DNA of 64,000 bases from an uncultured Poribacteria bacterium. Its GTDB lineage: Bacteria; Poribacteria; WGA-4E; WGA-3G. Below the pieces are notes generated by a model. The model saw only the letters and a program-made list of their open reading frames with translations, had not been told where the DNA came from and made no database searches. A program made the translations under genes and the position numbers. The stretch lies in contig OX639973.1 of assembly GCA_951828385.1 (NCBI GenBank), positions 372,001-436,000 on the forward strand, read 5' to 3'. Of this stretch, positions 43,668-58,946 are shown piece after piece (the first letter of the stretch is position 1; each line of letters starts with the position of its first letter).

Positions 43668-44036
43668 CTAACTTGGCACTGGTCTCTGTCGGATGTCGTT
43701 TTCATTATGAACAACGAAAAAGTTTTCTGTCCAGTCTGATCGACTTTCCACTACGTTTGCCATAATTTGTGCTACCTCCGATGGTGAACGGTTATCACGG
43801 CGGACGCGGAATAGGATAACTCCAAAGGGAGCTTTCTGTTTGTTTCGGAAAATTAGACGGCCAAAATGTCCTTTGTCGGATGTGAGAAGCACCCTGCCTT
43901 CAGCAGTGGCACGGGAAAGCACCATTTGGTCATCAATCCCAGGCGTTTCTTCTTCTATCCATACGAGGTCATGTCCGCGAGAACGAAGCATTTCTACTTC
44001 TATTCTGTTGAAATTTTCATCTGCTAACAGACGCAC
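43668..44036 (-). CDS. DUF5615 PIN-like toxin
   Basis: 122 residues. DUF5615 proteins are PIN-like nucleases that pair with DUF433 antitoxins. Features are the opening RLLADENFNRIEVEMLRSRG with the acidic D-E-N, the conserved HDLVWIEEETPGIDD, and RVLLTSDKGHFGRL. The start overlaps the 3' end of the HsdS-DUF433 gene by 20 bases, so the antitoxin domain and toxin are translated in tandem, as in a normal DUF433-DUF5615 pair except that the antitoxin is fused to HsdS. Confidence 0.87.
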   Translation of the reverse strand: MRLLADENFNRIEVEMLRSRGHDLVWIEEETPGIDDQMVLSRATAEGRVLLTSDKGHFGRLIFRNKQKAPFGVILFRVRRDNRSPSEVAQIMANVVESRSDWTENFFVVHNENDIRQRPVPS

Positions 44037-45591
44037 GTTTCACCTTTTCTTGATACGCGCGACACGCCGCAATGTCTTCATGTACAACGCTGGGATAATT
44101 TTCAACAATATCTTTCTCGCTCCACCCTTGTTTTAGTAAACCAAGAATAAACGCAACAGCCAAACGCGTCCCTTTGATAACAGGTTTTCCACCGAGGATT
44201 TTTCCATCGGAATGCAAACGCTCTGTTAGCGGGTATGGAATGTATGTCCCACCTTTTGTTGGCTGTATTCCATTTATGTTAATGTCAAGTTCGGATACGT
44301 CAATTTCTCCGGAGATGAGTTTGGGGAGGAGGTGGTCGCGGGTTTGGCGGAGATTCTGATTTCTTCGTTTGAGAATTTCTGTTTTTTGAAATATGCCAGT
44401 GGTGAAGTCAGAGAATTGTTCACTTGTTTCAGGGTCAGCAACTGCAACTACTTTATTGTTAAGTTCTGTCCAATACCGCTTGTATTCTTTTGTTTCAACA
44501 AGACTGGAAATTAGAAAAAATAAATATCCAACCGGCGTTTTATCTTTGGCGATAAAAGGAACTACGTTGGGCCCAAGAGAGAAAGGAACAACCATTAATT
44601 GCATCTTACAAGTATGATCCCCAAAAATCACAATTGGGTCTCTTGAAGAAGCATTGTGATCCGGTTCATTATCATGAAAACCTAAAAAATCCGCACGAGA
44701 TTGGTCAACCACAATAATTTTACCTGTTTGATCAACATCAGTTTCTCTATATGTTTTACCCGCTTTTAGACGTTTAACTATCTCCTTTACCTTCTTTACC
44801 TCCCATCCTTGCGGTATCAGTCCCAGCGGCGATTCTACCATCGGGACGTTCTCATGTCCGGGGAATCGGAAGTGGACGAACCATTCTCGGTAGAGGGTCT
44901 GTGCCATATCTTCAAGGATTTTGATGCGGCGGGTGTTGTTTTCGATGAGGTCGTCGTAGGTGGAAAGGATAGCGGCGATTTTGCATTGGGTTGCAAGAGA
45001 ATAGGCTGGAATATGGATGTCTTCAACGGATGACAATATAGCGCGCTGCCGTCCTGATGCCCCAGTCATACTCTTGACAGCAGGATCCCGAATTATAGGG
45101 CTCAGAGCCAAGTAGAATACGTAAGTTGAGTCTGATACATTGGGCTTGCCACGAAAGATGAAGAACTCTGTTGATCCAAAACAAGGTTCATTACTTGTGT
45201 GTTTACATCGGACAATCTTTCCATTTTCTAAACAAGGCGTGATACGAGCAAAAAGCGTGTCCCCGAATTGAAACCGTGAGCCTCCGCCTTTGTAAACCCG
45301 TTTTTTTTGTGGTAAAACAAATCCATTGCCTGGGTTAACATCAGCCATTTCAATGTAAGGATATTCTTTTCCCTTCTCTAACCGGATGCGCGGATTAACC
45401 TCAACGAAATCGCCAAAACGCATTGTGTCTGCCATCTTATTTCCTCTTTTACGTGGCTTTAGGTTAACCTTAACTTCCACTTCATGAGTTTCGTCCCAAT
45501 AATCGGCAAGGCTATGTGTGTCCCAAAAATCGCCGATTTCTTCTGGTGTTGCATCAGGAGGCGGCATTGGATCTCGCTCTTTATTTTTCAT
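44017..45591 (-). CDS. hsdS: HsdS specificity subunit fused to an N-terminal antitoxin-like segment and a C-terminal DUF433 domain
   Basis: 524 residues in one frame. Residues about 8-45 (PPDATPEEIGDFWDTHSLAD, then YWDETHEVEVKVNLKPR) match the start of the CopG-antitoxin/BrnA-like family, which lacks its usual C-terminal part here. HsdS proper may begin at M53 (45435), with AGAGGA upstream. Two target recognition regions follow: about 57-210, and about 255-420 (opening WEVKKVKEIVKRLKAGKTYR). The usual HsdS end DHLLPKLISGEIDVSELDI is then joined to about 70 residues of DUF433 (LHSDGKILGGKPVIKGTRLA, then LLKQGWSEKDIVENYPSVV). DUF433 is the antitoxin of DUF5615, encoded by the overlapping next gene. 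The HsdM partner is at 46112. Confidence 0.85.
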   Translation of the reverse strand: MKNKERDPMPPPDATPEEIGDFWDTHSLADYWDETHEVEVKVNLKPRKRGNKMADTMRFGDFVEVNPRIRLEKGKEYPYIEMADVNPGNGFVLPQKKRVYKGGGSRFQFGDTLFARITPCLENGKIVRCKHTSNEPCFGSTEFFIFRGKPNVSDSTYVFYLALSPIIRDPAVKSMTGASGRQRAILSSVEDIHIPAYSLATQCKIAAILSTYDDLIENNTRRIKILEDMAQTLYREWFVHFRFPGHENVPMVESPLGLIPQGWEVKKVKEIVKRLKAGKTYRETDVDQTGKIIVVDQSRADFLGFHDNEPDHNASSRDPIVIFGDHTCKMQLMVVPFSLGPNVVPFIAKDKTPVGYLFFLISSLVETKEYKRYWTELNNKVVAVADPETSEQFSDFTTGIFQKTEILKRRNQNLRQTRDHLLPKLISGEIDVSELDININGIQPTKGGTYIPYPLTERLHSDGKILGGKPVIKGTRLAVAFILGLLKQGWSEKDIVENYPSVVHEDIAACRAYQEKVKRASVSR

Positions 45592-46111: not shown

Positions 46112-47671
46112 TTAATCTTCCAAAATCTTTGCAACATTCTCAGCGATGCGTTCCTCGAGTTGATGTGCTTCAGCATTTAGTACCGCTAATTCCTCGTTGA
46201 GCTGCGTAAATCGTTCGGTGAAGTCGAAATCATCGGTTGTCTGTTCATCAACCCCGACATAGCGTCCGGGGTTCAGACTCCAGCCTTGTGACTCAATCTC
46301 GGCAATCGTAGCGACCTTGCAAAGCCCGGGAACATCACTGTATTCTGTATCGGGGAATTTTGAGGCGAAGAAATCTGCACTGTCGTGTTGATTCTCTGGT
46401 GCTTCTCCGCGATAGCACCTGACGATGTTTGCGAGGAATTCAAGTTGTCCGGGTGTGAATTCCCGATGTGCGCGGCTCACTTGCTGATAGAGATGGCGTG
46501 CATCAATGAACAAGACTTTATCGTGTCTATCGCACTCCCGTTTGGATTTATCAAAAAACCAAAGGGTACAAGGCAGCGTAACGGTATAGAAGAAATTGGA
46601 AGCGATGCTGACGATGACATCGACTGCCCCCGATTCGATAATCTGGCGGCGGATGTCGAGTTCAGAGGCGCGGGCATCGGCGGCGGAGTTCGCCATGACG
46701 AAACCTGCGCGTCCAGATTCTGAGAGCGAACTATAGAACAGTTGTATCCAAAGGTAGTTGGCATTATCAACGCGAGGCATACCGAAGGGAAATCGGGGAT
46801 CGTCTTTGATGCGTTCTCTGTCTACGCGATCGACGTTGAAGGGTGGATTTGCCATCACAAAATCAAACCTACCGAAGCAGTTGTGCGGATCCTCATAGTA
46901 ACTATTTGCCTGTTTGATATCGCCTTCAAGCGCATGAACGGCGAGATTCATCTTACACAACCTGATAGTTTCGGCGACGCGTTCAACGCCGTAAATGCTG
47001 ATGTCTCCGGGGTTACCATTTTTCTTGTGGTTGCTAATGAACGCTGCACTCTGGACGAACATGCCACCGGAGCCACACGCGGGATCAAGGATGCGCCCGT
47101 GAAAGGGTTGTATAATCTCAACGATGAGTTTGACGAGCGAAGTCGGCGTGAAGAATTCACCACCGCGTTGCCCCTCGCTCATGGCGAAATTGCCGAGGAA
47201 GTACTCATAAACTTTCCCGAAAGCATCTCCTTCAATGTCCATAGGAATCTGTTCCATGATACGGAGGAGTTCAAGGAGTGTGCTCTTTTCGAGACGATTG
47301 TACGTCTTCGGTAGGACACCATCGACCTGTGAATTTTCTGTCTCTATTGCCTTCATAGCGTCTGTGACGGCTTGTCCGATGTTTTCACCTTCTGGCAAAT
47401 TCAGTAGGTATTGAAAACGTGAATGCTCCGGCAGATAAAGTACACAGCGGGCTTGACATTCCATTCTCAGGTCGGGATGCCTGCGGCTGTTTGGATCGGC
47501 TTCGCTGCTGATTTCTTGTTCAGCCTGTGTAAATTTGTGATTGGCGTATCGTAAGAAGATAAGACCGAGGACAGGTGTTGAGTATTCGGATGCCTTAAGA
47601 CGTGAATTGGCTCTGAGTTCATCGGCAGCACTCCAGAGCCTATTTTCGATGTCGGTGAGATTGGTGTTCAT
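46112..47671 (-). CDS. hsdM: Type I restriction-modification DNA methyltransferase subunit (second system)
   Basis: 519 residues. HsdM_N occupies about 5-150 and the methyltransferase domain about 155-420. SAM motif I is [10 protein letters not shown] at 196-205 and catalytic motif IV NPPF at 275-278, so N6-adenine methylation is expected. The C-terminal coiled helix ([20 protein letters not shown]) contacts HsdS. It differs from the HsdM at 12164 and belongs to a different type I family. Its genetic partners are the fused hsdS at 44017 and the truncated hsdR at 39542, so it can act at most as a methylase. Confidence 0.94.
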
Positions 47672-51060: not shown

Positions 51061-54000
51061 TTAGAAATAAGACCTGCCGAGTGAGTTGCCGACCCCGAAG
51101 GCGTTGTAAGGTGTCCCGGCTGGTAATGTTCGGATGCCCCACGTTTCCGTTGTTGCGTCATAACCGACACCCATTGAAACTGCTGGCTCTTGGATGAGAC
51201 TGACTTGGAACGTGAAGTCTTGACGGACGTTGTCGTAAGGGGGTTCGCGTTTAATACCGATTCGACTCCAAGAAATCCGGAGGTTCCAATCGTGTAGGTT
51301 CCGCGTCATACTTAAACGTTGTTGATAAAACTGTCCATCAATCGGATAATAGATGAGACTGGCATTAAATTCGAGGTTTCGGCTCAAACGGTACCGTCCG
51401 GTAGCAGTAATGGAACGGGAGGCACGCCTTGCGGTATGCCTTTTGCTAAAAGAACTACCAATACTAACGTTCCAAGACTGTCGGGTGTAGCGGATGTTGG
51501 AACGGAACCCGACCAACTTAAACTGTTTTCCATCATCTGGGTGCGGATTGGGGTCGTGCGTCATCCGGATGGTCATGTTAAGGTTTCGACTCGGAAGCGG
51601 AACGATGGTAACATCGCTCTCAATCGGTTCAAACTGCCGTTCATATAAGGGGTCAAATTCAGTGAAATCGGCAGTCAGCCGCGTATCAAAATACATGATC
51701 CGATGCGGCGATTGGCTCCGCCGGGTTTTGATCTCAATCCCGGTATTGAAACTATAGGTAAGACGTTTTCGCTCATAAAAATAGGTGCTGGGCCCGAACG
51801 GATAGAGGTTATCATCTCTATCAACGGCAGGTTGGTAATCATACCGGAGTGAGGATTGAATTTCGTGCCGTAATTTCCGCAGCCCTGGGATAAAACTGAC
51901 GTTGTAGATGCGAAAGAGGGTATTCGTAGCCGATCCGTTAAAACTGAAAACGCCCCGAAAAATGTTCTTGTTTTGATCCTGGTCTCGGTCGTGCCAAACT
52001 GTATTTGAGTTGAGATTAAGGTTCAGCTGCAATTCCCGTAAAGGCGTAATAAGGAGGGTTGATTGTTTGCGGACATCAAATCCGAGGTCCATCGTTTTCA
52101 GGAATACATCTCTTTCTTCTTCACTGTCTTTATTGCGAAATACCTCTCTAAAGAAGTTGCCGAGTTCAATATCAAAGTCAATACTTGTGCTTTCAAGCGT
52201 TGGAAACGTGAGCATTGAGAGGAACGGCTTCTCCGTTTGGAGTTTTTCAGCCACCGTTACCATGCTGTCGTTGAGGGTAGAAAAGAGTGGAAACGCGCTG
52301 AGGCGCATCCGTGAAAAGTTCACGGTTAATCGGGGAAGTTTCTGTAACGACCTTGTGCCTTCACCCGTGAAATCGTGGATGTGCCGGATTTCAAGCCTAC
52401 TTGTGATGTCTCCAATAGTCTCTCGTGAAAACTTCAGATTCCCATTTTCATCAAGATCATAAAAATCAACTGTGGATAAACCGGTTCCATAAGTGAGTAT
52501 CGCAAAAGAATTGAGTGTGGATTGATTCGGGAGTTGGTATTCTTCTTTATAACTCTGGGATCGAAGTTCTGTTCTGCCACTGAAACTGATGGGTCTTCGC
52601 CCCTCTTGGCGGTTATCCCACGGCGTATAGATGGAATGTGTGTGTGCCCATCGCGCGATCAGATTGTTACCGGTTCGGATAGCACTTTGTCGCTGAGCGG
52701 AATAAACATCTTTAGTATAGATATAGAGGTCGCCGCGATAGGTACGCTTTCTATCAACTTTGATGAGCCGAAAAGATTTTTTGGTTTGAAGGGGGCGTCT
52801 ACTCAAGTCGCCGGCATACAAATTTTGCGCTTCCGAGGCTACTGGACTCGGGTCTTCCCATCGTCCCCGGAATCCGTGCTTTCGATAAATTTTAAGTGCT
52901 TCCTCATCTTCTGCTCCTTCTTCACCTTCTGCCTCTTCTTCTGTAGCTTCTTCGGTGGCTATGTCTTGGGAATCGGCTTCGTTTTGATCAGGCGTTGCGT
53001 CGTTCTGTTTGTCCGCTTCCGTTTCGTTTTGCTCGGTGTTCTGTGCACCATCAACATCATCTGTTTCGTTCTGCTCGTCGTTCTGTGTATCATCAATATT
53101 AGCGGCATCAGCGTCTTGAACAGGTTGCTCGGTGCTCTGTGCATCATCAACACCATCTGTTTCGTTCTGCTCGTCGTTCTGTGTATCATCAATATTAGCG
53201 GCATCAGCGTCTTGAACAGGTGCTTCCTCAGCGGGAGCAACATCAGCTTCTTGTGGCTGAATAGCCTCAGTAGTATCTTGTGTTGTTTCCTCCGTTTCAG
53301 TGCCTTCCTCGCCCTCTTCAGGTGCAGGATTCATTACACCTTCGTAAAAGGTCTCCCATTCCGCTTCAAATTCCTCTGCGACCGCTTCAAAAGTAGGTGT
53401 TTCTTCTTTTCTGATTAATTGGAAGACGTAGAGTCCTTCAGGCATCGTAATAGGTCGGCGTTCAATGATGTCTCCGGGTTTCTTTAAACGCCTGACAGAG
53501 GACTGCCAAGAAGACTCCATCTCATTTAGTGGCAACCCTTTGCCTTCATTGATTTCGGAGACCGTCGGTTGCGCTACATCAACGAATTCATCGGAAAGCG
53601 TTTCCATTATGTCCGCGGATACCTGCACGAGTTGTTCAAAGGGTTCACCTTCGTGTGCCCGTTTGAGCATATCATCTGCTAATAGGCGGAGTGCATCCTT
53701 TGTATCATCGCTTGCCGTAACAGCGATGTCAATCCGCCGGAGTTGAATCTCGCGCTCACCGTAGACATCAATAACGTGCTCGGCTTTGAGGATGTGAAAC
53801 GCAGAGTCGGTTTGGACGATACCACTAATCTCACCCTCTTGTAACGCGAAGGCAGCTTCTTGTAAAGCGGGCTCAAGCTTAGGTTCACCTTCCTCATCAA
53901 CTTCACCGCGAGCCAGGAAACCGAGGTCGCCGCCATCGTAACGGGTATCCGAATGATCGGAATTACGCTGCGCGAGTTCGGCAAAGTCTGCGCCTTCTTC

Positions 54001-55344
54001 TTGAAGCTGTTTGAGGAGATCTTCCGCCTTCTCTTTGGCACGGGTAACATCAGCATCCGTGATTTTATATTCCAGAAAAAGCTGCTTCAACCAATAGCGA
54101 TCGTATTCACCATCAAGTCGGTCCTGTAATTCTTGGGCTTTTTCTTGTAACTTGGTCCGTTGGTTAGGGGTCACATCCGGCGGAATAGGGATATAAATTT
54201 CTTGGAATTTTGTATCCGAGAACCGATACTTTCCTTCAAAACCGTAACCTTGCCCCCGTCGCGCGCTTCTATCGTAAAGCAACGCACCATCATAACGGCG
54301 TTTACGTGCAATAGGTTGGATGATACTGAGATAGGGGCCTTGGTAGCTATCAGTTCCGAGTTTGACGATAATCTTTGCGACTTTTCCTTTACGAAGATCA
54401 CGGCGAATCGCTGGGAAATAGAAGAGCGGGAACCCACCAATCCGCAAAACGATGTTTTTGGCGATCAACTCCTGATTCATTCGGACAATGACTTCGGTGA
54501 CGCTGAAATAGTAGTGTGGGTGTTTCAGAGAACAGGTGGTCAGCGTTGCGCCTCGGATATAGGATCGGTCTTCCTCTATTTTAAAGATTTCACTCCCACC
54601 GAAGTACCACGGGTCGCTGTATGTAAAGCCGTTGCGTGCAATGCCTTTTTTCGTTTCGAGGTTGAAGATGAGTTCATCAGAGTAGGTTTCTTCATTGCCG
54701 ACCTTGAGATGAACGTTGCCCGATGCCCGCAACAGATTCTCGTCGAAATCCGCCCAGATATGATCCGCCCGCAAAATGACATTTTCGTGTTTGATGAGTG
54801 CATTCCCGTGAATTTGAACGAAATTATCGACAATAGACATATCATCGCCATCGCCGATAACCATACCTTCTTCTGGTATATCAGTCTCCGGATCCAACCG
54901 TTCTGAACTGTTTTCTTCTTCTGGTGCCTGCTCCTCAGAATCGGGGGTTTCCGTCTCAGCGGCAGGCGGTTCAGATGGTTCTTCGGAATCGGGGGTTTCC
55001 GTCTCAGCGGCAGGCGGTTCAGATGGTTCTTCGGAATCAGGGGTCTCCGCCTCAGCGGCAGGCGGTTCAGATGGTTCTTCGGAATCGGGGGTTTCCGTCT
55101 CAGCAGCAGGTGGCTCAGATGGTTCTTCGGAATCGGGAGCTTCGGTCTCAGCAGCAGGCGGCTCAGGCGGTTGGGCTTCTTGCGCTATAACCCCGTGCAT
55201 TGGGAAAAAAAGATAGGCAATGATTAATATGGCTGCCGCTATGCCTGCACGCTTCAGCATAAAAACAAGCGATGCGCGTATTCGCGACGGAAGGTCTGTT
55301 TTGTAAGGGTACACTGCGTTGGCATATTGCTGCTGGTGACTCAT
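51061..55344 (-). CDS. lptD: LptD-like outer-membrane assembly protein with an internal parvulin region
   Basis: About 1427 residues from the ATG at 55344. A hydrophobic N-terminal segment (GIAAAILIIAYLFFPMHGV) acts as signal or anchor. An acidic-proline repeat follows (about 60-145), then an OstA/LptA-like domain at 165-330 (FVQIHGNALIKHENVILRAD, then YSDELIFNLET). From about 415 to 530 lies a parvulin PPIase-type domain (AEDLLKQLQEEGADFAELAQ, then YDGGDLGFLARGEVDE), and a weaker second one extends to about 670. An acidic repeat linker at about 680-810 precedes the C-terminal beta barrel (amphipathic strands such as RLEIRHIHDFTGEG), which would insert LPS-like lipid into the outer leaflet. 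LptD normally lacks a parvulin. It follows a SurA-like gene. Confidence 0.83.
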   Translation of the reverse strand: MSHQQQYANAVYPYKTDLPSRIRASLVFMLKRAGIAAAILIIAYLFFPMHGVIAQEAQPPEPPAAETEAPDSEEPSEPPAAETETPDSEEPSEPPAAEAETPDSEEPSEPPAAETETPDSEEPSEPPAAETETPDSEEQAPEEENSSERLDPETDIPEEGMVIGDGDDMSIVDNFVQIHGNALIKHENVILRADHIWADFDENLLRASGNVHLKVGNEETYSDELIFNLETKKGIARNGFTYSDPWYFGGSEIFKIEEDRSYIRGATLTTCSLKHPHYYFSVTEVIVRMNQELIAKNIVLRIGGFPLFYFPAIRRDLRKGKVAKIIVKLGTDSYQGPYLSIIQPIARKRRYDGALLYDRSARRGQGYGFEGKYRFSDTKFQEIYIPIPPDVTPNQRTKLQEKAQELQDRLDGEYDRYWLKQLFLEYKITDADVTRAKEKAEDLLKQLQEEGADFAELAQRNSDHSDTRYDGGDLGFLARGEVDEEGEPKLEPALQEAAFALQEGEISGIVQTDSAFHILKAEHVIDVYGEREIQLRRIDIAVTASDDTKDALRLLADDMLKRAHEGEPFEQLVQVSADIMETLSDEFVDVAQPTVSEINEGKGLPLNEMESSWQSSVRRLKKPGDIIERRPITMPEGLYVFQLIRKEETPTFEAVAEEFEAEWETFYEGVMNPAPEEGEEGTETEETTQDTTEAIQPQEADVAPAEEAPVQDADAANIDDTQNDEQNETDGVDDAQSTEQPVQDADAANIDDTQNDEQNETDDVDGAQNTEQNETEADKQNDATPDQNEADSQDIATEEATEEEAEGEEGAEDEEALKIYRKHGFRGRWEDPSPVASEAQNLYAGDLSRRPLQTKKSFRLIKVDRKRTYRGDLYIYTKDVYSAQRQSAIRTGNNLIARWAHTHSIYTPWDNRQEGRRPISFSGRTELRSQSYKEEYQLPNQSTLNSFAILTYGTGLSTVDFYDLDENGNLKFSRETIGDITSRLEIRHIHDFTGEGTRSLQKLPRLTVNFSRMRLSAFPLFSTLNDSMVTVAEKLQTEKPFLSMLTFPTLESTSIDFDIELGNFFREVFRNKDSEEERDVFLKTMDLGFDVRKQSTLLITPLRELQLNLNLNSNTVWHDRDQDQNKNIFRGVFSFNGSATNTLFRIYNVSFIPGLRKLRHEIQSSLRYDYQPAVDRDDNLYPFGPSTYFYERKRLTYSFNTGIEIKTRRSQSPHRIMYFDTRLTADFTEFDPLYERQFEPIESDVTIVPLPSRNLNMTIRMTHDPNPHPDDGKQFKLVGFRSNIRYTRQSWNVSIGSSFSKRHTARRASRSITATGRYRLSRNLEFNASLIYYPIDGQFYQQRLSMTRNLHDWNLRISWSRIGIKREPPYDNVRQDFTFQVSLIQEPAVSMGVGYDATTETWGIRTLPAGTPYNAFGVGNSLGRSYF
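53061..53221 (-). repeat. 96-bp coding direct repeat in the lptD linker
   Basis: A stretch encoding about 32 residues rich in D, N, Q and E (QDADAANIDDTQNDEQNETD) is present twice, 96 bases apart, keeping the frame. It lies in the acidic linker between the parvulin region and the barrel. Length variation would be neutral, as expected for a disordered spacer. Confidence 0.7.
54938..55177 (-). repeat. Five 48-bp coding repeats near the LptD N-terminus
   Basis: Five copies of a 16-residue unit (EEPSEPPAAETETPDS and close variants) follow the hydrophobic segment. The 48-base period keeps the frame. The unit is acidic and proline-rich, as expected for an extended periplasmic spacer. Confidence 0.75.
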
Positions 55345-55378
55345 CGGCAAATCGGAATCGCTCTTTCTCAGAGGTTTC

Positions 55379-56674
55379 TTACTCTTTTAGATTAATTTTC
55401 ACGTAGGCGTTTTCAAGCAATTTATGGGTGTACGCGTCCCATTCTTCCTGAAATCGCTGTTGACGGAGTATTACGGTAATCTGTGTTTTCTCCGCTTCAG
55501 TCAAGCCGGGACTATCCCGTTCGTCAACTTTGAAGATGTGGAGTCCAAGTTCCGTTTCATAAGGTTGACTATAACCACCGGATGCGAGCGGCTCGACGAC
55601 TGCTCTCGTTTTAGGATTGAGTTCGGATAAGGATCGGATGCCGAGATCTCCACCGTTTTCACGCGTTTCATCATCATCTGAATGTGCCAATGCGAGTTTA
55701 CTGAAATCTTCACCCGCCTCCAATTTTGCGTAAACTCCGTCAGTCTGCTTGCGTGTGTCTTGTATAGCCGACGGACTCGGCACCAATGGAACAATGAAAT
55801 ACCGAAATTCAATCATCTCGTCCGTTTTATTTTCAACCGTGAAGACATAGAGCCCTCTGTCCCCTTCAATAGGTTCACTGAGTGTACCTATCGTCAAGTT
55901 TGTGAGTGAATCTTGGAAGAGCTTCGGAAATTTACTGAGTTCTTCGGTGGAAGCTTTTATGAGATCGCCTGTCTGCTTGGAGGTATCATAACGTTTTGCG
56001 ACATCTTCAAACTTCGCGCCCCCTGTTTCGATCTGATTAAGTGCTTTTTTGACGTTTTCATAAGCGGCATCGCGATCTGCTTGGTTGGGTTTAAAGGCGA
56101 TAAACATGTGTCGTAAATGGACTTTATCCGCTTTAGTTGATAGTTGATCTCGATTTTCTTCAAAGAATTTTTGGATTTCACTATCGCGTATCTGTAATCG
56201 GGGTACAATTCTGCCCATAACAAGTTTCTCGGTTTTGAGGTTCCGCTCCGATTGCTCACGAAATGCGACGAGTGTCATCCCTTCTCGGTTCAACTGTCTC
56301 TTAAATTCGTCGTCGGTTTCAATTTGATATTTATCTTTAAACTCTTTGATGTACTGTTCCACCTCTATTTCACTGACAGTAATCCTTAATGTCAACGCTG
56401 CTTCCAAAAGTAGCATTTGCCGGATGAGCCTATCCAACAACTCAGATCGTTGGCGTTCAGCCTCATTGAGTGCCTCGCGCTCGCTAAAGCGATAAACTTG
56501 TTGAAGTTCCATCGCGCGCTGATTCACTAAGACATCAAGTTCGCGCTTGGTTACAACATCATCGTTAACGTAAGCAACGATTTTATCAAATGTGCGTGCG
56601 TGAACGCTTGAGATACCGCCACTGATGATAAGAAGGACGATCACCGTGAGATAGACCCCTTTTTTATCCAGCAT
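55379..56674 (-). CDS. surA: SurA-like periplasmic chaperone/peptidyl-prolyl isomerase
   Basis: 431 residues with a signal peptide (VYLTVIVLLIISGGISSVHA). The SurA_N-type helical domain is residues about 30-170 (DKIVAYVNDDVVTKRELDVL). Two parvulin-like domains follow, about 180-290 (ADKVHLRHMFIAFKP, ending GDRGLYVFTVENKTD) and about 295-400 (GEDFSKLALAHSDDDETREN, then GGDLGIRS). SurA delivers outer-membrane beta-barrel proteins, LptD among them. Here it is 34 bases upstream of the lptD-like gene, which fits that role. The gene is complete. Confidence 0.88.
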   Translation of the reverse strand: MLDKKGVYLTVIVLLIISGGISSVHARTFDKIVAYVNDDVVTKRELDVLVNQRAMELQQVYRFSEREALNEAERQRSELLDRLIRQMLLLEAALTLRITVSEIEVEQYIKEFKDKYQIETDDEFKRQLNREGMTLVAFREQSERNLKTEKLVMGRIVPRLQIRDSEIQKFFEENRDQLSTKADKVHLRHMFIAFKPNQADRDAAYENVKKALNQIETGGAKFEDVAKRYDTSKQTGDLIKASTEELSKFPKLFQDSLTNLTIGTLSEPIEGDRGLYVFTVENKTDEMIEFRYFIVPLVPSPSAIQDTRKQTDGVYAKLEAGEDFSKLALAHSDDDETRENGGDLGIRSLSELNPKTRAVVEPLASGGYSQPYETELGLHIFKVDERDSPGLTEAEKTQITVILRQQRFQEEWDAYTHKLLENAYVKINLKE

Positions 56675-56741: not shown

Positions 56742-57746
56742 CTATTCTTCGGGTTCCGTCTCCGCAGGCGGTTCTTCGGGTTCCGCCTCTGGAATCCGAT
56801 CAATATAGGTTTTGACCTCGGCACGCTCGCGGAGTTTGTTGATCCATTCCGTCATAAGTGCCTCTCGTTTTTCGCGATCCGCTTTCCGCTCTACACTCTT
56901 ACGGACATCCTCATCGTCAAAGGGTTTTTGGAATTCATCGCGAGCTTCATCCTTACGGAACATCATGAAGTATTTCTGTCCTTGGACTTCAAGCTCAATA
57001 ACGTCATCGTGGATTTGACCGATCTCTGCAGAGAAGGCCGCGTCCAAGAAGGGTTCTGTTCCCGACGGATAGGAATCACGACTGAAGTAATCGGTGTCGC
57101 CCGGAGCGGATGGGTTGGCACCGGGACCGACGAGTTCGCCTCGGTCAGAGAGTTCTTGTGCGGCTTCGGCGATGTCTTTCCCCTCTTTGATTTGCGCGGA
57201 GACTTCATCAGCCCGTTCCTTATCTATAAGCGTGATACACAAAAGCCTCACTTGCGCGGGGCGGACGTATTCCTCTTTGTGTGTTTCATAATACGCCATA
57301 TAATCGGCTTCAGACAAGGTGAGTTTATCGTCAACTTCTTGGGTGGTAATTCTTTTAACCATCAACTCGTGAAGATAGTCCTGAACCTTCTTGAGAATTT
57401 CTGCGTCTTCGTTAAGTTTATGATCGCGAGCGAGATTGAGAATTAAGCGACTTTCCGCCATAAGGAGCATGTATGTCTCCAGCCCCTCTTTGTCCTGATA
57501 CTGCCGTTGCTTGTATTCCGGGAGTTCGCTAATCTCTTGCATCATCTCCTCAAGGGTGATGCGCTGTTTACCATTCCACTCAAATTCAGCGATAACTGTT
57601 CCGTCGGCGCCGATGGCCTTGTCGCCACAACTATAAAAGATGGGGTGTGTGGCAAGAATCCCAATTAAAAGTAAAGGGACGACCGGCAGTCGAAGCGTGC
57701 AATCTATTCTACCCATGGATTGGGCAATTCTTGTGAGCATTTTCAA
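56742..57746 (-). CDS. Lipoprotein-like parvulin/SurA_N-related protein, paralog 1
   Basis: 334 residues from a TTG at 57746 behind AAGGAG (an ATG lies two codons on). A hydrophobic N-terminal stretch ends HPIFYSCGD, a lipobox-like site, so it is probably lipidated in the periplasm. A helical domain (RITLEEMMQEISELPEYKQR, then LMLMAESRLILNLARDHK-type) precedes a parvulin-like domain with VRPAQVRLLCITLIDKERAD and DTDYFSRDSYPSGTEPFL. The C-terminal tail is acidic and rich in E and P. It is co-oriented with the SurA gene and a close paralog (57809). Foldase or chaperone activity is likely but not proven. Confidence 0.75.
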   Translation of the reverse strand: MKMLTRIAQSMGRIDCTLRLPVVPLLLIGILATHPIFYSCGDKAIGADGTVIAEFEWNGKQRITLEEMMQEISELPEYKQRQYQDKEGLETYMLLMAESRLILNLARDHKLNEDAEILKKVQDYLHELMVKRITTQEVDDKLTLSEADYMAYYETHKEEYVRPAQVRLLCITLIDKERADEVSAQIKEGKDIAEAAQELSDRGELVGPGANPSAPGDTDYFSRDSYPSGTEPFLDAAFSAEIGQIHDDVIELEVQGQKYFMMFRKDEARDEFQKPFDDEDVRKSVERKADREKREALMTEWINKLRERAEVKTYIDRIPEAEPEEPPAETEPEE

Positions 57747-57808: not shown

Positions 57809-58783
57809 CTACTGTTCTGACTCCTCGGTCTCCGCTTCCTCAGGTTGCGGTGGCGTTGGAATATTCTCAGCGTAGGTTTTCAATTTGCCTTTTTCGGAGA
57901 TCTCAGCGACCCACTCATTGATGCGTTCGCGTTTCTTTGAACGCTCAACAGTTCTTTCGATATCGCTTTTGACCTCGTCAAATTCCTTTTGTCGTTCGGG
58001 TTGATGTTCCTCTTTCCGGAAGATAAGGTAGAAGGTTTCGTCATTGACATCGACTTCAAAGACAGCATCTGTCATTTCGCCAACTTCTTGAGCGAAAACA
58101 GCTTCTATGAACTCCGTCCAACGCGCTGAAGCGGATTTTGTGAAGAAGTAGGTATTACCGGGATCCTCTGGGTCAGAGCTGCCGGGGCCGTTTGCGGCGA
58201 ATTTTCCTGCTTCAAAAATCTCCTTCGCCATCTCAACGATGTCTTTTCCTGCTTTAATCGCATCAAGCGTTTCGTTAGCGAGGTCCTCATCATCCAGTGT
58301 AATGCAGGTTGCGCGAACCTTTTCATCCTCAATGTACTCGCCGAGATTCCCCTGGTAGTGTGCCATGAGATCGTCAGTTGTATAAATGACCTTGGCATCA
58401 ACTTCCATTTCGGTTAATTTCTCAACCATGAGTTGGTGCGTGTAGTCATCGAGTTTCTTGAGGTGTTCCGGGAGTTTATCAAACCCCTCATCAGCCGCGC
58501 GGAGAATTTTGAGCCGTTCCTCTATTAATTCTTCAAGATATTCGGCTTTATCCACTCGACTCTTATAGTTCTGTTGACGGTAAACGGGTAATTCTGCGAT
58601 TGCAGCGTTTAGATCCGCCAACGAAATTTGGTGTGTGTCGTCGTTCCATTTGTACTCCGCTACAATCACCTGGCTTTCGTCCATATCAGATGCCGGCTGC
58701 TCATGGCTATCCGATTGAACGAACTTCCAAGTCAATAGACAGGTCATGGCGACAACTACAAAAATAGTAATCGTTTTTTTCAT
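57809..58783 (-). CDS. Parvulin/SurA_N-related periplasmic protein, paralog 2
   Basis: 324 residues from the ATG at 58783 behind AAGGAAC; the longer frame upstream is not supported. An N-terminal hydrophobic segment (TITIFVVVAMTCLLTWKFV) is the signal or anchor. The helical part HQISLADLNAAIAELPVYRQ and the parvulin-like part YIEDEKVRATCITLDDEDLA, then NTYFFTKSASARWTEFIEAV, align with the protein at 56742, so the two are paralogs. The C-terminus is acidic. It lies between mfd and its paralog on the same strand. Confidence 0.75.
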   Translation of the reverse strand: MKKTITIFVVVAMTCLLTWKFVQSDSHEQPASDMDESQVIVAEYKWNDDTHQISLADLNAAIAELPVYRQQNYKSRVDKAEYLEELIEERLKILRAADEGFDKLPEHLKKLDDYTHQLMVEKLTEMEVDAKVIYTTDDLMAHYQGNLGEYIEDEKVRATCITLDDEDLANETLDAIKAGKDIVEMAKEIFEAGKFAANGPGSSDPEDPGNTYFFTKSASARWTEFIEAVFAQEVGEMTDAVFEVDVNDETFYLIFRKEEHQPERQKEFDEVKSDIERTVERSKKRERINEWVAEISEKGKLKTYAENIPTPPQPEEAETEESEQ

Positions 58784-58946
58784 ATTTTTAATGTTCCTTG
58801 CGGTTCGGTCAGGTCGGTTTGGAAAATGAAGTGCCTTTCCGTATATCCAGCCTGCCCGCCCCTTCCCAGTAACGGGTGGGGCCCCGGTTAGGCTTACGCG
58901 CTTTGGGCATTGCGCGTAGCACATCTTTTTTTGCTACCTTGCGTTT

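Follow-up and report, generated by a model that had tools for sequence, protein, structure and literature searches.

Three nested parvulin units within the barrel of LptD from Poribacteria

In E. coli, LptD is assisted by the chaperone SurA. The outer-membrane barrel of the usher FimD has a folded plug domain between two of its strands, and this plug sits in the lumen or in the periplasm. The loops L1-13 of LptD are extracellular and its turns T1-12 periplasmic (PMC4353691). Residues 237-239, right after strand b1, form the extracellular loop L1, and the extracellular loops seal the channel (PMC4493717). At least one disulfide between jellyroll and barrel is needed for the function of E. coli LptD, and the same source cites a cooperation of SurA, DsbC and DsbA (PMC10567701).

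The lptD gene described here is located in a stretch of 64,000 nucleotides from an uncultured Poribacteria bacterium (contig OX639973.1, positions 372,001 to 436,000; hereafter the window). Its product resembles the solved LptDs (5iv9, 7omm, 8h1r/5iva) in having a signal, a jellyroll, a barrel and a proline in b1, which is invariant in Poribacteria, and LptE, LptF/G and LpxC are encoded in the genome. In contrast to the solved proteins, the b3-b4 turn of Poribacteria LptD holds three nested parvulins and an acidic linker, and the cysteine pair is lost in the window's class. With SurA (E. coli, 1m5y) and SurA-like PPIases (8hm4) the insert shares the P1-P2 order and a collinear profile match, and the adjacent gene encodes a SurA; unlike these proteins, it has neither SurA_N nor a pair of active-site histidines, and its units are nested in a third, split parvulin that is joined to an outer-membrane barrel. 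This split unit has the fold of the Pin1-type PPIases (PF00639; Z 9.4 over 96 residues for Pin1), but its two pieces lie far apart in the chain and flank two further units. The FimD plug is likewise a domain between barrel strands, but differs in fold and in barrel. No description of a parvulin-containing LptD or of such a nested architecture was found in the open-access papers searched.

The lptD gene and its neighbours

The gene (51061-55350, minus strand, as are all its parts given below) is a single open frame for 1429 amino acids, counted from a TTG at 55350; an ATG at 55344 is an alternative start. Pfam assigned Rotamase (PF00639) to residues 431-524 (E 9e-23), a second stretch to Rotamase_2 and residues 1053-1182 to LptD_2 (PF19838; E 3.5e-5, 23.1 bits with a cut-off of 22.5), while OstA_2 at residues 176-233 stayed below its cut-off (E 0.017). 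Residues 138-410 match the solved LptD 7omm. As seen from LptD_2, 7omm and the matches of LptDs from outside the phylum, one and the same chain contains a jellyroll and, after it, an LptD barrel, and the product was confirmed as a genuine LptD. This bears out the initial annotation, which had described an LptD with parvulin domains inside the chain and had expected a parvulin profile match within residues 415-670. It had also named a joining of two genes during assembly as a possible error and proposed a search for the same fusion in related genomes. A false joint is ruled out, since the genome is one contig of 6.66 Mb and 76 of 85 Poribacteria genomes carry the frame undisrupted.

Sequence reading places a signal peptide or N-terminal hydrophobic segment at residues 1-56 (55183-55350). 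Residues 59-150 (54901-55176) consist of acidic, proline-rich tandem repeats, EPPAAETETPDSEEPS, encoded by an in-frame repeat at 54938-55166 with a unit of 48 bp in 4.8 copies. The OstA/LptA-like jellyroll (residues ~165-325, 54376-54858) holds C273, the only cysteine of the protein. Barrel strands b1-b3 (residues ~334-378, 54217-54351), with the invariant Pro346 in b1, were recognised by alignment with solved and out-of-phylum LptDs; the remainder of the barrel, which starts with b4 and ends with the C-terminal strand (residues 870-1429, 51064-52743), is delimited by the LptD_2 match, outgroup profile matches and the same kind of alignment.

Only 28 nt upstream of lptD lies a gene for a SurA-like chaperone with SurA_N and two Rotamase domains by Pfam (55379-56674, minus strand), in agreement with the initial annotation, which had SurA-like genes directly preceding lptD. 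Two further genes for PPIC-type periplasmic proteins come before it (Pfam; 56742-57746 and 57809-58924, both on the minus strand, the latter a weak match of 27.5 bits with a cut-off of 27), and beyond these an mfd-like ORF was read. In most Poribacteria genomes the adjacent surA is the next-best match of the LptD profile, and from its adjacency the insert was probably derived from this neighbour. SurAs of other phyla score similarly against the profile, so that adjacency fits a local origin but is no proof of it.

The LPS pathway is present in the phylum. LpxC was found in 82 of 85 genomes. An LptE above the cut-off of its family was found in 36 of the 85, among them the genome of the window (G000:C1:1009318, E 2.3e-5), which also has two genes for LptF/LptG at 6465421-6467734. 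This genome has the partners LptE and LptF/G as well as LpxC for an LPS substrate. A replacement of LptE by the parvulin insert was considered, and the detection of LptE speaks against it. Elsewhere in the window, a type I restriction specificity subunit (Methylase_S) with a C-terminal DUF433 is encoded at 44017-45591 (minus strand) and overlaps a DUF5615 gene (43668-44036, minus strand), an arrangement that links an antitoxin-like domain to HsdS and places it next to a toxin-like partner; HsdM is encoded at 46112-47671 (minus strand).

Position and build of the insert

For comparison with the Poribacteria profile, 17 LptDs from outside the phylum were used. They match the jellyroll and b1-b3 (profile positions 2-~220, iE 1e-30 to 1e-46), and most of them also match the C-terminal barrel, while the parvulin part is unmatched in all 17 and homology ends at the insertion point. 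When the insert is excised, Poribacteria proteins align with these LptDs through one hairpin, in which GYGFEGKYRF (b3) precedes and GDLYIYTKD (b4) follows the insert. According to this alignment and to the solved LptDs, which pass through a short b3-b4 turn uninterrupted, the insert comprises residues ~379-869. An uninterrupted hairpin is a common but not a defining trait of LptD, and the protein of the window is therefore a variant. The initial annotation had correctly joined an OstA-like domain, parvulins and a barrel in one gene; its order, with the parvulin domain between OstA and barrel, is ruled out, since strands b1-b3 come before the insert.

Because L1 directly follows b1 and the L loops are extracellular, the b3-b4 turn corresponds to the extracellular loop L2, and by this strand count the insert would lie on the outside of the cell. 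The full-length structure model is of low confidence (pLDDT 35), and the barrel topology was for this reason taken from homology only. An alternative strand count, in which the segment KFQEIYIPIP would be b4 and the insert would come to lie in the periplasm, was discarded: this segment is the b1-a1 part that the C-terminal piece of the insert needs for a complete parvulin, and in the alignment with other LptDs their b4 falls behind the insert.

Instead of the parvulin pair of the initial annotation, the insert holds three parvulin units, the outermost of which (residues ~379-417, ~650-667 and 821-869) is split and encloses the pair P1/P2 (418-649). The first half of the outer unit (b1-a1, residues 379-417) is encoded at 54100-54216. 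Then follow P1 (residues 418-529, 53764-54099), which carries the PF00639 match, and the degenerate P2 (residues 530-649, 53404-53763), which corresponds to the second Rotamase_2 stretch and whose profile is collinear with SurA P1-P2. The second half of the outer unit is encoded in two parts (residues 650-667, 53350-53403, and residues 821-869, 52744-52890), separated by an acidic low-complexity linker of 153 aa with a net charge of -54 (residues 668-820, 52891-53349) and low pLDDT in the insert model. This interruption is found in the window's order only; more distant lineages have ~10 aa at that place, and core inserts measure 313-340 aa in lineages without the long linker. Part of the linker is encoded by an in-frame tandem repeat at 53029-53221 (two copies of a 96-bp unit), and both the linker and the acidic N-terminal stretch differ in length among relatives.

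Three separate Rotamase stretches were recognised by Pfam in linker-free relatives (L060, L067, L059). In the third, only the C-terminal part of a parvulin can be recognised, FEELARQYSD...GYRGPW...GEMSDVIET..YRIIKVEDKR, and the b1-a1 missing from it is located where the insert begins, FQEIYIPIPPDATP... When combined, both pieces reach 35.2 bits over positions 8-97 of the 97 of PF00639, compared to 25.7 bits for the C-terminal piece alone. The structure of the insert was predicted for a relative (L047, 471 aa) from a shallow alignment of 22 close sequences. The model has a mean pLDDT of 62 and a pTM of 0.48, with values mostly of 80-90 in the first half of the outer unit and in P1, and the acidic linker is disordered. 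Human Pin1 superposes on 96 residues that span positions 12-446 of this model (rmsd 2.8, Z 9.4), an outcome to be expected only when the two ends of the insert together build a single parvulin. For SurA P1 the superposition covers 98 residues spanning 52-284 (rmsd 2.3, Z 10.5) and suggests an interleaved rather than a tandem arrangement of the inner units P1 and P2. The half-domains would then follow the order N-N-C-N-C-C; given the shallow alignment and the pTM, this arrangement of the inner units is provisional.

The profile match of P1, the three Rotamase stretches in relatives and both superpositions identify the insert as parvulin in fold and profile. The insert is not a SurA, which combines SurA_N with two parvulins in a soluble periplasmic chaperone: Pfam gave no SurA_N match in the LptD protein of the window, and the insert is part of a barrel.

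Distribution and related changes in the barrel

A profile (A2) built from 16 diverse members was searched in 85 Poribacteria genomes and in 302 genomes of other phyla. All 85 Poribacteria genomes match the LptD protein of the window, and jellyroll, parvulins and barrel form one open frame in 76 of them by our count; the remaining genomes yielded contig-end fragments, a split frame or hits to SurA only. The insert is kept in every recovered Poribacteria LptD whose contig covers the site, and many of its residues are invariant in close relatives. Two sequences (L032 and L045, from G032 and a related contig) show LptD in two frames around residue 270 of the window protein, possibly by a frameshift or a sequencing error. 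One genome with 9% contamination (G059) carries two different full-length parvulin-LptD genes, on contigs C130 and C35, which probably belong to two organisms.

No fusion was present among the matches listed from the 302 genomes of other phyla, which represent about two genomes per phylum with the best two candidates each. The best hits there were LptDs matching profile positions 2-~220 (a few up to 254-266) or separate SurAs matching ~250-510. With two candidates scored per genome and the stronger matches listed, a rare fusion outside Poribacteria may have escaped this search. Additional searches in further phyla, with 2-6 genomes each, gave no fusion and add little. The fusion is real and old within Poribacteria, and the parvulin was most likely acquired by the last ancestor that the sampled members share.

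The cysteine pair of jellyroll and C-terminal barrel (TTC / LHC) is found in most of the out-of-phylum LptDs sampled (L084-L100) and is missing from some of them (L089, L100). The window protein, with C273 as sole cysteine and the motif RNLHDW near its C-terminus, lacks these disulfide cysteines, a common rather than a strict trait of LptD. LHCW is changed to LHDW in 44 of 51 distinct Poribacteria proteins. The pair is broken in the window's class and present in G001 and G002, the two genomes outside this class, which retain LHCW.

These two genomes (L056 of G002 and L055 of G001) also have a second parvulin in the barrel, after PDFSLRLP / PEINFNSP. By the same strand count it would lie between the homologues of b9 and b10, i.e. 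in L5, on the extracellular side. Its C-half precedes its N-half, and restoring the usual order raised the Rotamase_3 score of the G002 unit from 62.3 bits for a partial match to 71.5 bits for one of nearly full length. The second parvulin is probably circularly permuted.

Possible function of the insert

All three units were aligned with approximate reference sequences of Pin1, PpiC and SurA P2, and the active-site positions H59, C113/D, M130, F134 and H157 of Pin1 were compared. None of the units has both active-site histidines together in any sequence examined. P1 keeps the second histidine (H157) in the window's order only, and F134 is replaced nearly everywhere in these sequences. As judged from these alignments, the loss of the paired histidines argues against an isomerase, though a weak activity would be compatible with it, and the insert is most likely a non-catalytic binding or structural module.

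We favour, with a probability of roughly 0.55, a non-catalytic parvulin cap or binding module at the outer mouth of Poribacteria LptD that was inserted in the ancestor of the phylum. In this ancestor a parvulin, probably from the adjacent surA, would have entered the b3-b4 hairpin. In the central sheet of a parvulin the first strand lies next to the last, so that such a unit can extend the hairpin and leave the barrel unbroken. A further parvulin pair lies within the first unit, between its helices a1 and a2. The L2 hairpin is near the lateral gate b1/b26, where the module most likely caps the outer mouth of the translocon (or folds back towards the lumen). We infer a function as a lid or as a scaffold that may bind loops of LptD itself, LptE or a surface partner, and that possibly holds the hairpin during assembly. 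A demanding requirement counts against a cap at L2: a folded extracellular domain of ~490 aa must cross the outer membrane during assembly. More tentatively, the extracellular units may be a Russian-doll stack of three non-catalytic parvulins at L2, which would act as gating lid or docking scaffold for outgoing LPS and in part replace the control of assembly by the jellyroll-barrel disulfide.

The initial annotation had proposed that the fusion could couple folding to LPS transport. In this reading the insert would be an intramolecular chaperone or isomerase that serves the barrel of its own LptD chain within the periplasm. The role of SurA in E. coli, the collinearity of the insert with SurA P1-P2 (E 6e-17) and the surA gene directly upstream would suit such a built-in SurA, and so would the periplasmic location of the whole chain before membrane insertion; moreover, the window's class has no jellyroll-barrel cysteine pair, so that its control of assembly must differ. 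However, the insertion site corresponds to the extracellular L2, a separate surA is still next door, no unit has kept both active-site histidines and SurA_N is missing. The proposal is therefore unsupported, and we regard a built-in foldase as unlikely and as a weaker reading than a non-catalytic binding or lid module; the insert could still act in a chaperone-like way before membrane insertion, while the chain is periplasmic.

The decayed catalytic residues, the variable length of the acidic linker and the second parvulin in L5 of the two genomes outside the window's class would also be expected if an extracellular loop simply accepts insertions and the module is neutral or merely shielding. 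This is improbable given the presence of the insert in every recovered LptD of the phylum whose contig spans the site, and given its many invariant residues in close relatives. Marginally less probable still is a plug, formed by an insert that turns back into the barrel lumen to close or gate LptD, although the extracellular loops of known LptDs seal the channel (PMC4493717) and the b3-b4 hairpin is not far from the lateral gate. LptE, which is known as the plug of LptD, still scores above its cut-off in 36 of 85 genomes including the window's, and with LptE in the lumen there would be little room for a core insert of 313-340 aa.

LptD is among the proteins targeted in antibiotic development, and it is commonly viewed as a jellyroll plus a barrel. 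Throughout the phylum Poribacteria, bacteria of sponges and the sea, one loop of this protein contains a module of three parvulins, and in the main class the jellyroll-barrel cysteine pair is lost as well. Nested or permuted parvulin domains within an outer-membrane barrel are a rare case, and the LptD of Poribacteria represents a natural experiment on the assembly and gating of LptD.
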